Assembly: GCA_026987075.1 (NCBI GenBank)
Contig: JALSNI010000040.1
Span: 1-41,159, forward strand
Length of the DNA stretch: 41,159 nucleotides
Source of the DNA: Persephonella sp.
GTDB lineage: Bacteria; Aquificota; Aquificia; Aquificales; Hydrogenothermaceae
Direction: 5' to 3'
How positions within the stretch are numbered: the stretch's first letter is position 1; each line of letters begins with the position of its first letter. The notes beneath the pieces are model-generated. The model did not search any database and was not told the DNA's origin. It worked only from the letters and a program-made list of their open reading frames with translations. This document shows positions 2,533-30,544 of the stretch, piece by piece. Both the position numbers and the translations under genes were made by a program.

Positions 2533-3492
2533 ATGAAAATGAAAAAATACTTGGTTGACAATTTACAAAAAGGGTGGATGCTAATAAGAGAAGAGTTAGG
2601 AGAAAATGCAATAATTCTGTCTATCAAAGAAACAGAAGGTAGTTTTGAAATACTTGCTGCATCTCCTGAAAAGAAAAAAACAGAAATAAAAGACAAGCTA
2701 TTTGAGCAATTCAAATCAAAATTTAGCAGAAAAGAGGACATTAGCTCTTTAGAAAAGATTATAAATCTTCTCATAAAAATAAAAGATTCAAAACTCAGCG
2801 GAAAATTTCTATCAGAAATACAGGATGAAATCTCAGACATCTATCTACCTATTATTGAAAAAATCAACAGTGTAGATGTTTTAACAAAAATAGAGACAAA
2901 CCCTTTAAGAAAAAAGTTTATCAATGTTTTGGGAAACGTTTCTTCTGGTAAAAGTACCACTGTAGCAAAGTTAGCAGCCATACTAAAATTCAACAGAGAG
3001 AAAAAAATAGCTGTTGCCTCTTTTGACTTTTACAAAATCGGAGGTTCTGAAAGTCTGAAAACATTTGCAGAAATAATGCAGATACCATTTTTTATGATAA
3101 AAGACGAAAAAGACCTCATTATGTATAAAGATTCCTTTGAAGAATTTGAACACATCTTATTTGATACCCCTGGAAACATAAAAGACCTTGACGAAGTTGA
3201 AAAACTCCTAACCTTTATCACATCAAGCCCACAAGCAGAAAACATTTTAACTGTTCCTCTAACTAAAAAGGAAAGCCTGATAAATAAAGATATAAATTAC
3301 TTCAGTAAATTTAGAATTCATCATTTAATACTTACAAAAATAGACGAGATAGAAAACCAGATACCCCTTTATTTTGTTCTGTCTAATTATGACTACAAAA
3401 TTAGTTATATAACCAATGGTTTAAACGTTCCTAAAGATATTGTTGAATCCTATCAGGTATTAAACGGAATTTTTGAGGTAGAAAGCCGATGA
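2533..3492 (+). CDS. flhF: Flagellar SRP-type GTPase FlhF
   Basis: FlhF is an SRP-family GTPase that places the flagellum at the pole, working with FlhG at the membrane. At 319 residues it is at the short end, with a small N-terminal B domain (about 1-60). The NG domain holds a P-loop variant GNVSSGKSTT near residue 138, the region corresponding to DTYR as SFDFYKIGGSESLKTFAE, a G3 motif DTPG instead of the usual DTAG, and TKIDE near 270. Lys-rich N-terminal segments are present. It is the first gene after the sigma-54 promoter and overlaps flhG by 4 bp. Confidence 0.9.
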   Translation: MKMKKYLVDNLQKGWMLIREELGENAIILSIKETEGSFEILAASPEKKKTEIKDKLFEQFKSKFSRKEDISSLEKIINLLIKIKDSKLSGKFLSEIQDEISDIYLPIIEKINSVDVLTKIETNPLRKKFINVLGNVSSGKSTTVAKLAAILKFNREKKIAVASFDFYKIGGSESLKTFAEIMQIPFFMIKDEKDLIMYKDSFEEFEHILFDTPGNIKDLDEVEKLLTFITSSPQAENILTVPLTKKESLINKDINYFSKFRIHHLILTKIDEIENQIPLYFVLSNYDYKISYITNGLNVPKDIVESYQVLNGIFEVESR

Positions 3493-4352
3493 AAGACCAG
3501 GCTCAAATGCTAAGGGATATGGCTAAAAGTATAAGACCTTTTGATTTTCAGGTTATCTCTATAACCTCTGGGAAAGGTGGAGTTGGAAAAACAAGTTTTA
3601 CCGTAAATCTTGCATACCAGCTCCAAAAATTAGGAAAAACAGTTCTTATACTTGATGCAGACCTTGCCCTTGCAAACGTAGATATAATCCTTGGAGAAAG
3701 ACCTAAATACAACCTACTGCATCTTCTATCAGGGGAGAAAAATATTAACGAAATAATATGGGAATCAAAATACGGCATTAAGTTTATTCCAGCATCATCT
3801 GGATTTGAGGAATTAGCAAACCTATCAAAAGAAAAACAGATACAGATACTAAATGCCCTTCAAGAGATTTATTACAAGTTTGACATTATGTTAATAGATA
3901 CCTCTGCAGGTATATCAGAAAATGTTATAAACTTCTGTCTTGCAGCAGACAAAACCATCGTTATAACAACCCCTGACCCTACAGCATTAGCAGACTCATA
4001 TGCTATCTCCAGAATAATCCTTACAAATAAACCTGAACACTTAGAAGCAGGATTGGTAGTTAATTTCGTCAATGATGAGCAGGAAGCAGAAAAAATACAC
4101 AGGGGAATGAATAACATACTAAGAGAGTTTACAGGAAAAACGATAAAGTATTATGGTTCCCTGAGAAAAGATAAAAACCTGTCAGAATCTGTTAAAGACA
4201 GATACATTCTGTCTGCAAAACATCCAAAATCTCCATACAGCATAGATGTAGAACATATAGCAAGATATATTATTGAAGGGAAAATTCCCCCGAAAAAAGA
4301 AAGCTTTTGGAACCGATTTCTCAGAAATCTTAAAAATTTGAAAGTAGAGTAA
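3489..4352 (+). CDS. flhG: Flagellar number regulator FlhG (MinD-like ATPase)
   Basis: FlhG (FleN/YlxH) is a MinD/ParA-type ATPase that limits flagellar number and stimulates FlhF GTP hydrolysis. The N-terminus carries the FlhF-activating DQAQMLR element (residues 3-9), which separates it from MinD. The deviant Walker A SGKGGVGKTS lies near residues 27-36, the LILDADLALANVD segment near 54, and the Walker B-like LIDTSAG near 134. The 287-residue length is normal. The C-terminal WNRFLRNLKNLK is likely a membrane-targeting amphipathic helix. It lies between flhF (4 bp overlap) and fliA (12 bp gap). A true MinD is encoded at 10.9 kb. Confidence 0.95.
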   Translation: MKDQAQMLRDMAKSIRPFDFQVISITSGKGGVGKTSFTVNLAYQLQKLGKTVLILDADLALANVDIILGERPKYNLLHLLSGEKNINEIIWESKYGIKFIPASSGFEELANLSKEKQIQILNALQEIYYKFDIMLIDTSAGISENVINFCLAADKTIVITTPDPTALADSYAISRIILTNKPEHLEAGLVVNFVNDEQEAEKIHRGMNNILREFTGKTIKYYGSLRKDKNLSESVKDRYILSAKHPKSPYSIDVEHIARYIIEGKIPPKKESFWNRFLRNLKNLKVE

Positions 4353-4364
4353 GGAGGAGAAACT

Positions 4365-5090
4365 ATGAAAGTTTCAAACAAAGAGAGAAATGAAATTATT
4401 ATGGAATTTCTTCCAAAAATACATTACATAGTCCAGTCAATAAAACAGGAAAACCTTCCTCCAACAGTAACAGAAGAAGACCTTATAAACACAGGAGTTT
4501 TAGGATTGATAGATGCGATTAATAAATACGACCCATCAAAGGGAGTAAAGCTTTCAACATACGCAGAAATAAGAATAAGAGGACACATAATTGACAGTCT
4601 GAGAAAGCTTGACTGGATACCAAGAAATATAAGACAGAAAGCAAGACACATAGAAACTGCCATATTAGAAGTGGAACAAAAGTTAGGAAGAGAAGCAAAA
4701 CCAGAGGAAATAGCTGAATATTTAGGGATGGATGTTGAAGAATACATGAAGTATGCAGAAAAAATATCAAACAGTGGTCTTATATCAATAGATACTAAAG
4801 TGGGAATAGATGAAGAAAGTTCCACAAGCCTGTGGCAGATTATATCTGTAAACGACGATACTCCCGACAAATTTGTGGAAGAAGAGGAGTTGAAAAGGAT
4901 TATTTCTGATATAATTTCTAAATTGAAAGATAGAGAAAGATTAGTAATAACTCTGTATTACTATGAAGAACTATCTATGAAAGAAATAGGAGAAATTTTA
5001 GGGCTTACAGAGTCAAGAATTTCTCAAATCCACACAAAAACTATGATGAAAATAAAAAATATGATAAGTAAATATTTGACAAAGGATTAA
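4365..5090 (+). CDS. fliA: RNA polymerase sigma-28 factor for flagellar genes
   Basis: A 241-residue FliA/WhiG-type sigma factor that directs late flagellar transcription. Region 2 is visible as LINTGVLGLIDAINKYD followed by STYAEIRIRGHIIDSLRKLDW, the -10 recognition part. Region 3 includes LGREAKPEEIAEYLGMD, and region 4 ends with the helix-turn-helix MKEIGEILGLTESRISQIHTK. The start has a strong AGGAGG. Its place third in a sigma-54-driven operon suggests a cascade from sigma-54 to sigma-28; whether an anti-sigma factor FlgM is encoded cannot be told from this window. Confidence 0.96.
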   Translation: MKVSNKERNEIIMEFLPKIHYIVQSIKQENLPPTVTEEDLINTGVLGLIDAINKYDPSKGVKLSTYAEIRIRGHIIDSLRKLDWIPRNIRQKARHIETAILEVEQKLGREAKPEEIAEYLGMDVEEYMKYAEKISNSGLISIDTKVGIDEESSTSLWQIISVNDDTPDKFVEEEELKRIISDIISKLKDRERLVITLYYYEELSMKEIGEILGLTESRISQIHTKTMMKIKNMISKYLTKD

Positions 5091-5579
5091 ATGGAAGACA
5101 ACATATACGTCTATTACTTGATAGGTGACCTTGAGAATTATGTAATAGACAACAAAAAAAAGGTAGAAAAGCTTTTAAAAAGCAAGAATAAAATCTCTAC
5201 AAAAGATGGAGCTTATATATTTGACAAATTCTCTGTTAGTCTAAAAAAAACCACAAACCTGATAAAAAATTCAGCATATGTGTCTGATATAGAAACATTG
5301 AGAACAGTATCAGTATTATCCTCAGAAACTGTTGCCTGGATTATGTTCACACTTCCAAACATAGAATCTGAAATTCCTATTTTTTTAGACAATCTTATAT
5401 TAGGAAACAGACACATTATTGATGCGCTAGGAGAGCTTCTGTTAGAAATAGATGAGTTTATAGAAAATCCTACTAAGCTAAAAACATCTAACAAAGAATT
5501 CTACAATATGATAAATGAAGTATCTATGTTTTTTGGACATTTGTCCAATATGATAGGAAAGGGCGTTATTGAAAATTAA
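5091..5579 (+). CDS. Uncharacterised helical protein linked to fliA
   Basis: A 162-residue protein, not recognised. Its ATG directly follows the fliA stop, so it belongs to the flhF-flhG-fliA operon. It has no signal peptide and no clear membrane segment; hydrophobic residues recur in a helical pattern, with a Lys-rich N-terminal part (KKKVEKLLKSKNK) and a C-terminal part ending SMFFGHLSNMIGKG. Chemotaxis phosphatase CheZ was considered because of the helical nature, but its catalytic Asp-Gln motif is not visible. A flagellar or motility role is inferred from position only. Confidence 0.8.
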   Translation: MEDNIYVYYLIGDLENYVIDNKKKVEKLLKSKNKISTKDGAYIFDKFSVSLKKTTNLIKNSAYVSDIETLRTVSVLSSETVAWIMFTLPNIESEIPIFLDNLILGNRHIIDALGELLLEIDEFIENPTKLKTSNKEFYNMINEVSMFFGHLSNMIGKGVIEN

Positions 5580-5584
5580 CGCCC
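5561..5584. terminator. Hairpin spanning two convergent stop codons
   Basis: An 8-bp inverted repeat, GGGCGTTA and TAACGCCC, with an 8-base loop. It contains the stop codons of both converging genes (5579 plus, 5576 minus). No long T-run follows on the plus strand, while a short TTT follows on the minus strand. A role as bidirectional terminator or mRNA 3'-end stabiliser is inferred. Confidence 0.55.
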
Positions 5585-6361
5585 CCTAACTAAAGATAGA
5601 CCTCCATCAACGACAATTGTCTGTCCCTGTATCCATTTAGCATCTGGAGTGCAAAGGAAACCAACAACACCTGCAATATCTTCAGGCATACCCATTCTCC
5701 CAAGAGGAGTTAGTTTGATAGTTCCTTCTTTCACCTCTTCATAGTTAGGGAAAAGCTGTATCGCTTCTGTGTCTATAGGTCCTCCAGAGACTGTATTAAC
5801 GTTTATACCCTTTGGACCGAACTCAACGGCAGCATATCTCACTAATGCTTCAAGGGCAGATTTTGCAGCTCCGTGTATGGCATAGTTAGGCATGTAATCT
5901 TTTGTTCCTGTTGAAGATATAGCAATAATTTTTCCTTCTCTGCCGTCCATCAGCTTAACAGCTCTCTGGGTTGACCATATAAATCCCATAACAGTTATGT
6001 CAAATATTCTTCTCGTTCCTTTTTCCCTTAGCCTTAAAAATGGAGCAAATCCTCCAACAACTTCTCTTCCAGATGCAACAGCATTACTAACGAATATATC
6101 CAAATAACCAAACTTTTCTTTTATCTCGTCAAAAACCCTGTCTATGTCTTCTTTGTTTCCAAAATCTCCCTGTATAGCGTATCCCTTTACTCCCTTTTCT
6201 TCTATCTCTCTAACAGTTTCTTCTGCTTTTTCTTTATTCTTATAATAGTTAATAATAACATCTGCTCCCATCTGTGCTAACTTCAGGGCAATAGCCCTTC
6301 CTATTCCTCTACTCCCTCCTGTGATAAATGCCAGTTTTCCCTCAAGCTCCTTGCAAGCCAT
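5576..6361 (-). CDS. fabL: Short-chain dehydrogenase, probable enoyl-ACP reductase FabL type
   Basis: A 261-residue SDR oxidoreductase. The NAD(P)-binding TGGSRGIGRAIA lies near residue 15. The active-site Tyr and Lys are in NYAIHGAAKSALEAL, with six residues between them as in FabL/FabI enoyl reductases, rather than the three of classical SDRs. The following NTVSGGPIDTEAIQLFPN and the ending GQTIVVDGG strongly resemble Bacillus FabL. It would reduce trans-2-enoyl-ACP in the last step of fatty acid elongation. It is the final gene of the minC-led operon, with a strong AAGGAGGAG ribosome binding site. A different SDR substrate is possible. Confidence 0.8.
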   Translation of the reverse strand: MACKELEGKLAFITGGSRGIGRAIALKLAQMGADVIINYYKNKEKAEETVREIEEKGVKGYAIQGDFGNKEDIDRVFDEIKEKFGYLDIFVSNAVASGREVVGGFAPFLRLREKGTRRIFDITVMGFIWSTQRAVKLMDGREGKIIAISSTGTKDYMPNYAIHGAAKSALEALVRYAAVEFGPKGINVNTVSGGPIDTEAIQLFPNYEEVKEGTIKLTPLGRMGMPEDIAGVVGFLCTPDAKWIQGQTIVVDGGLSLVRGR

Positions 6362-19038: not shown

Positions 19039-19114
19039 CGGAGCGTAGCTCAGGCGGTAGAGCACTGGCATGGGGGGCCAGAGGTCGGCGGTTCAAGTCC
19101 GCTCGCTCCGACCA
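19039..19114 (+). tRNA. tRNA-Pro (anticodon GGG)
   Basis: The 76-base sequence folds into a cloverleaf: acceptor CGGAGCG with CGCTCCG, D stem GCTC/GAGC, anticodon stem CTGGC/GCCAG with GGG at 19072-19074, T arm around TTCAAGT, discriminator A and an encoded CCA. The C1-G72 pair is typical of bacterial tRNA-Pro. It starts 3 bp after the HU-family gene and may be processed from that transcript. Confidence 0.95.
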
Positions 19115-29826: not shown

Positions 29827-29900
29827 GGAGGGTGTAGCTCAGCTGGCAGAGCACAAGGTTGTGGCCCTTGGGGTCGCGGGTTCAAGTCCCGTCACCCTCC
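29827..29900 (+). tRNA. tRNA-His (anticodon GTG)
   Basis: A cloverleaf with acceptor GAGGGTG/CACCCTC, an extra 5' G (29827) facing discriminator C (29900) as expected for tRNA-His, D stem GCTC/GAGC, anticodon stem CAAGG/CCTTG with GTG at 29861-29863, and T loop TTCAAGT. CCA is not encoded and must be added by CCA-adding enzyme. A strong promoter sits upstream. Confidence 0.95.
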
Positions 29901-30368: not shown

Positions 30369-30452
<84 letters not shown>

Positions 30453-30460
30453 CTCAAAAA

Positions 30461-30544
30461 GCGAGCGTGGCGGAACTGGCAGACGCGCGGGACTTAGGAT
30501 CCCGTGGCCGCAAGGCCGTGAGGGTTCAACTCCCTCCGCTCGCA
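30461..30544 (+). tRNA. tRNA-Leu (anticodon TAG)
   Basis: An 84-base class II tRNA: acceptor GCGAGCG/CGCTCGC, discriminator A, anticodon stem CGGGA/TCCCG with TAG at 30495-30497, and the same variable arm GGCCGCAAGGCC as its neighbour. CCA is not encoded. The two genes look like a tandem duplication that diverged in anticodon and compensating stem bases. Confidence 0.95.

Follow-up and report, generated by a model that had tools for sequence, protein, structure and literature searches.

Directly behind the sigma factor gene fliA of Persephonella sp. lies a gene for a nameless protein, and the locus raises the question of whether this position tells what the protein does. In the present study, the window was a stretch of 41,159 nucleotides of this organism (contig JALSNI010000040.1; order Aquificales, family Hydrogenothermaceae), and its features are collected in Table 1. 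The preliminary description had regarded the gene as an unrecognised helical protein fixed to the end of the flagellar regulatory operon, and had read its position as the mark of a partner of FliA, FlhF or FlhG, possibly an anti-sigma factor analogue or a placement factor. The open reading frame had been placed exactly in coordinates, strand and length. The TAA stop codon of fliA (5088-5090) abuts the ATG of the gene (5091-5093) in the same frame, and the AAAGGA within the end of fliA is probably its ribosome-binding site. A frame of about 160 codons was maintained in relatives of the same family at 28-73% identity, and dN/dS was 0.09-0.12 against three congeners, with dS near saturation. The preserved frame and the low dN/dS indicated that the gene is real; as judged from these sequence comparisons, it is under purifying selection and is not a chance open reading frame.

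Table 1. Coordinates of features in the window (positions of the whole stretch) and of entries in one related genome
Feature	Position	Strand	Basis or remark
Gene under study	5091..5579	+	162 codons/aa; all-helical predicted cytosolic protein; order-restricted nameless family
Possible ribosome-binding site, AAAGGA, in fliA 3' end	5081-5086	+	Read by eye
Glu15 codon	5133..5135	+	Identical in all 37 rows of alignment A4
Best-conserved stretch, residues 79-98 (end of helix 3 and next loop): E79, W83, P89, E92, P96, F98	5325..5384	+	Conservation; helix limits from the model
flhF-like SRP-GTPase gene	2533..3492	+	Best NCBIfam match FlhF (TIGR03499), below its cut-off
flhG-like MinD/ParA ATPase gene	3489..4352	+	Below cut-offs of MinD models
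fliA (sigma-28 family), abuts the gene	4365..5090	+	TIGR02479, 255.8 bits vs cut-off 189.6
SDR-type oxidoreductase gene, convergent	5576..6361	-	Named from sequence; overlaps the last 4 bases of the gene
tRNA genes	19039-19111; 29828-29900; 30369-30452; 30461-30544	+	Last two in tandem
Entries of genome G103	C11:50221-50523; C26:73344-74527		

The window protein and 37 members of its family were compared with Pfam and NCBIfam, and two members with PHROGs. No curated family was matched at its cut-off, in agreement with the preliminary description of the gene as unrecognised. The window protein matched Bud3_N of Pfam below the cut-off (E 0.0078) and one PHROG at E 0.025. Among the 37 members, each Pfam or NCBIfam family listed matched a single member, with the best E values being 3.1e-4 for COP9_hel_rpt and 1.6e-3 for tPilZ, and none of the Pfam matches listed at E 0.1 was common to more than one member. 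With the first 25 members, DUF7734, IcmW, DUF1804 and UEV appeared in two or three members each (best E 0.017-0.068). These Pfam, NCBIfam and PHROGs matches, scattered and weak as they were, were rejected as chance. Searched with hmmsearch, the PDB sequences yielded designed coiled coils, none of them better than E 0.036. No known non-flagellar family gave a clear match, and no paper on the family was found in the open-access literature. With the profile searches covering two phyla, the family appeared to be new, nameless and order-restricted, a further example of a lineage-specific protein whose function is unknown. Like the conserved signature proteins restricted to an order, it is mostly single-copy, order-wide, unnamed and without a known fold relative; unlike them, it switches its upstream neighbour between clades, often overlapping it.

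The helical nature of the protein was borne out by an AlphaFold2 model built from 17 sequences, which gave a confident all-helical bundle (pLDDT 88.9, pTM 0.86) with helices at residues 2-30, 37-63, 67-92, 99-102, 109-125, 127-132 and 135-161. Proteins of the family are about 150-165 residues in length, with four long helices in the bundle. No membrane helix was evident (maximal 19-residue hydropathy 1.21), and no conserved Cys/His pattern suggesting a metal site was seen by eye. Foldseek searches of PDB and BFVD produced no hit at E 0.001, the lowest values being 0.075 and 0.030, respectively. The best VIA-align match, at Z 11.9, was a designed protein and scored lower than the value documented with the tool for helical models that lack a clear counterpart. 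The matches of both tools were mostly helical proteins with no clear front-runner; FlgM, CheZ and flagellar chaperones were not among the 50 matches listed by each of Foldseek (PDB) and VIA-align, an absence that excludes nothing. Met1 and Glu15 were invariant in 37 of 37 rows of alignment A4, and Phe98 was nearly invariant. The conservation points to residues 79-98 as a candidate partner-binding patch; the pLDDT of residue block 91-100 was 71.

To describe the distribution of the family, we used a sample of 136 genomes of the phylum, 112 from the window's order (families f1, f2 and f3) and 24 from outside it. Family f1 is Hydrogenothermaceae, the family of the window; kinship suggests that f2 is Aquificaceae and f3 a small third family, Hydrogenobaculum-like. 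Searched alone, the protein had a match at E <= 1 in 33 of 41 relatives. A profile of 25 members detected the family in 94 of the 136 genomes and a profile of 37 members (A4) in 100, comprising 100 of the 112 order genomes and 0 of the 24 others. The wider profile added G033 and several f3 genomes that the 25-member profile had missed. Fragments of about 30 residues were all that was found in two of the 100 (G047 and G062), and the match in G008, a genome 55% complete, carried many stops. The family usually has one copy per genome, and the second match seen in three genomes (G006, G008 and G086) was a fragment each time. Among the 12 order genomes without the family, completeness reached 90% in only three, and these belong to genus g21. 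In G006, a congener 100% complete in 2 contigs, the gene is broken into two overlapping frames (129 and 51 residues; L012:1501-1890), through either an error of sequencing or a genuine frameshift.

Alignments A1 and A4 include f2 rows first detected through weak pairwise matches (E 1e-5 to 0.003); for this reason, a separate comparison of f1 and f2 profiles was run. These independent profiles matched at 98.6% probability (E 7.7e-16), which indicated that f1 and f2 hold one family; f2 matched f3 at 97%, and the match of f1 with f3 was weaker (60%). A pattern scan of 84,980 species, which detects close relatives only, returned 17 loci, 16 of them labelled Aquificota, Persephonella, Hydrogenothermus or Hydrogenothermaceae and one Sulfurimonas. 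The last lies on a contig of a Sulfurimonas sp. MAG (G136; L084:1-3796) that carries flhF, flhG, fliA and the family gene in Hydrogenothermaceae-type arrangement and is probably misbinned. The 298 genomes of the Sulfurimonas phylum gave two matches, namely G136 itself and a weak one containing stops. Plasmids gave 0 matches, viral contigs none, and phages one at E 0.6.

A flagellar accessory protein would be expected to follow the flagellar genes in its distribution. FlhA (PF00771), FliA, FlgM, flagellin (PF00669) and CheW were scored in this sample of 136 genomes, and the rod/hook domain PF06429 served as a further marker. When the incomplete genomes were counted too, the family was found, among the 112 of the order, in 74 of 80 with both FlhA and flagellin, in 17 of 22 with neither and in 9 of 10 with one. 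Some incomplete genomes counted as having neither do carry rod/hook genes (five in G023 and two in G080), so the argument uses only the 75 order genomes that are at least 90% complete. Of these, 62 had FlhA and flagellin, and the family was present in 59 (in G047 only as a fragment); two had one marker, and both had the family; 11 had neither marker, and all 11 had the family. The 11 comprise all five genomes of g15, two of g11, three of f3 and one of g9. FliA was over its cut-off in none of them, and FlgM was missing in ten and matched in the eleventh (G021). The FliA cut-off is imperfect, since the flagellated f3 genomes G026 and G034 fall below it at 150-154 bits; in the three flagella-less f3 genomes, the FliA profile gave only matches near E 2e-34, as sigma factors of other kinds do. 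PF06429 over its cut-off was missing in ten of the 11, and G074 has one 39-residue remnant over it; weak matches below the cut-off were seen in G035, G065 and G066. Genomes in which CheW had no match, among them the five of g15 and G041, also carried the family. Conversely, the three flagellated g21 genomes, 99% complete, were without it, and the family is thus dispensable for some members of the order. As far as gene content can tell, this phyletic pattern is that of a general protein and not of a flagellar one. Hydrogenobacter thermophilus TK-6 is described as non-motile in a passage of a published paper (PMC3111988).

Some genomes with partial sets of markers were observed beside these. Genus g9 had no FlhA, flagellin, rod/hook or CheW match in 3 of 3 genomes (97, 78 and 69% complete), and FlgM matches in G105 and G021. 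In G104 (78% complete; L090:2300-3510) and G105 (69% complete; L089:1553-2757), a FliA 75-76% identical to that of the window is followed by the family gene, with no flhF match in the stretch examined. The persistence of this pair would fit a lasting non-flagellar FliA connection in Hydrogenothermaceae and plain linkage equally well. G103 (g7, 99% complete; Table 1) had no FlhA or rod/hook match and a flagellin match broken by a stop, together with FliA, FlgM, CheW and the family; it has perhaps lost its flagellum recently. A non-flagellated Legionella that keeps FliA and FlgM is cited among the references of PMC12199754. The window's own assembly (G000, 95% complete) had no FlgM match, though several congeners have one; this is possibly a gap.

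The same data bear on the known flagellar families. FlgM is a small protein that acts on FliA and is helical when bound and unstructured when free; the helical protein CheZ is encoded near fliA in some bacteria, in the order cheY-cheZ after fliA. The position of the gene after fliA, its all-helical fold and its similar size, which is also that of the helical FlgN, FliS and FliT, would suit a highly diverged FlgM, CheZ or flagellar chaperone, but we regard this reading as highly improbable. The hhalign probabilities of the family were 0.1% against E. coli FlgM, 0.2% against CheZ, 0.4-0.5% against FlgN and 0.1-0.3% against FliS, single sequences on that side giving the comparison low power; the controls CheY and FliA gave 0.0-0.2%. 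FlgM, CheZ, FlgN, FliS and FliT were absent among the Pfam matches listed for 25 and for 37 members (25 rows of each list). FlgM (PF04316) is shorter than the family protein, and an FlgM match lies at another place in 106 of the 136 genomes (102 over the cut-off). Co-occurrence with a FliA over its cut-off, as would be expected of FlgM, was not seen in the 11 genomes above; the family is retained without the chemotaxis marker CheW, unlike what would be expected of CheZ (PF04344), and without flagella, unlike what would be expected of a chaperone or other flagellar accessory protein, and g21 in turn has flagella without the family. The preliminary description, which could not place the protein in FlgM, CheZ or other known flagellar families, was supported, and a dedicated flagellar role, be it anti-sigma-28, CheZ-like or chaperone, is unlikely.

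The neighbours of the gene were then compared between families. In f1, it immediately follows fliA, in the same orientation, in 36 of 39 family-bearing genomes (less than 100 nt between profile matches); the exceptions are G003 and G108, in which the two are on different contigs, and G021, in which no fliA was found and the gene is at a contig end. Even without flhF and flhG in front of fliA, the pair is kept (L073 and L079). In none of the f2 genomes examined was the gene at fliA, which was 108-1308 kb away in the ten measured. The attachment to the operon end holds within Hydrogenothermaceae only, and outside that family no conserved link to fliA was seen. Neighbourhoods of f2 were read in 19 genomes, with at least one member per group named by family search (hslU by NCBIfam in L058) and the others by similarity. 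The upstream neighbour was hslU, overlapping by 1-4 nt, in 12 of 12 genomes read of g11, g13, g14 and g15; a KamA-type radical SAM gene, at a gap of 2-73 bases, in 5 of 5 of g16, g17 and g22; and a nitroreductase gene, overlapping by 4, in 2 of 2 of g18. Two f3 genomes had no close same-strand upstream neighbour. Overall, the gene often overlaps or abuts the preceding gene. In a maximum-likelihood tree of 37 members, the four contexts with at least two rows each fell on one side of a branch, with support of 100/100 for f1 and for f3 and moderate support for hslU (94/92) and kamA (85/65); the tree contains several long branches, and only midpoint rooting was applied. Since each context is confined to one side of a branch, the gene was probably relocated rarely and then inherited with its new neighbour.

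Several features of the f2 loci were also observed. A gene of 146-155 residues precedes hslU in several genomes (L058:5853-6317, L110:1223-1660), where hslV might be expected; the label hslV was rejected, as NCBIfam gave no match. A free-standing 85-residue relative of the FlhB C-terminal domain (PF01312) is convergent with the family gene at L058:3819-4073. Similar genes occur at this place in six g11/g14 loci, where they adjoin a gene of about 470 residues; in L058, the latter has no Pfam match.

Because the two genes overlap in four genera, HslU is the most tempting partner candidate. The protein could act on the HslU ATPase as an adaptor or regulator and, in Hydrogenothermaceae, feed FliA or another client to proteolysis; small helical adaptors are a usual size class for AAA proteases. 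Even so, we consider this improbable. Members of the kamA and nitroreductase groups, of f3 and of f1 carry the gene away from hslU, as exemplified by G000, G005, G041, G049, G068, G095, G026 and G028, each of which has the family elsewhere. Moreover, hslU was found in 3 of 3 genomes searched of g21, which is without the family, and a different, convergent gene lies at the hslU loci of G090 and G092. Neither the sequence nor the fold comparisons showed a match to a known adaptor. A broader form, in which a near-universal Aquificales adaptor would hand clients, sigma-28 included, to the HslU protease, and another client where flagella were lost, is very unlikely in our estimation; if true, it would link heat-shock proteolysis to the motility sigma factor.

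The fliA link itself admits a lineage-specific co-option, whereby the Hydrogenothermaceae protein became a partner of FliA (or of FlhF/FlhG) and, for example, tunes sigma-28 activity or stability beside FlgM. The adjacency on one strand in nearly all f1 genomes agrees with such a role, as does the persistence of the pair without upstream flhF/flhG and, in G103, G104 and G105, without flagellar structural genes found. Nevertheless, we think it rather unlikely. Homologues occur without FliA over the cut-off in all 11 high-completeness genomes lacking FlhA and flagellin, and FlgM matches occur in many of the genomes. In the closest pair, dN was 0.149 for the gene vs 0.019 for FliA; the gene thus evolves faster than FliA, and this gives no hint of a closely fitted interface. 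Linkage in small genomes can also last without function.

The explanation that we favour, and hold to be probably correct, is an order-restricted, soluble adaptor or regulator of four long helices that binds a partner, is expressed via its host operon and is most likely not flagellar. The family is kept by relatives without flagella and lies far from fliA in others, which argues against a flagellar part; the preliminary view of its position as the mark of a FliA, FlhF or FlhG partner therefore found no support, the family lying elsewhere in f2 and being kept in genomes in which no FlhA, flagellin, FlgM or over-cut-off FliA was found. The protein would be non-enzymatic and would bind its partner via the end of helix 3 and the following loop (E-x3-W-x5-P-x2-E-x3-P-x-F). 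This partner would belong to a process needed by swimming and non-swimming members alike. In Hydrogenothermaceae, the gene may have been placed behind fliA once and expressed through that operon since then. The adaptor mechanism is our guess from size, predicted fold and conservation. The tight fliA link in one family, the g9 pair of fliA and the gene without flagellar markers, and the g21 genomes without the family speak against this explanation.

If the fliA link were functional after all, it would provide another level of control over sigma-28, in a lineage that branches deeply. On the favoured reading, the locus is a warning about guilt by association, as an apparent flagellar-operon gene in one family would be a general order-wide protein that survives the loss of the flagellum. 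Nearly core in Aquificales and represented by no Pfam or NCBIfam model, the family is a reasonable target for cataloguing the peculiarities of these thermophiles.
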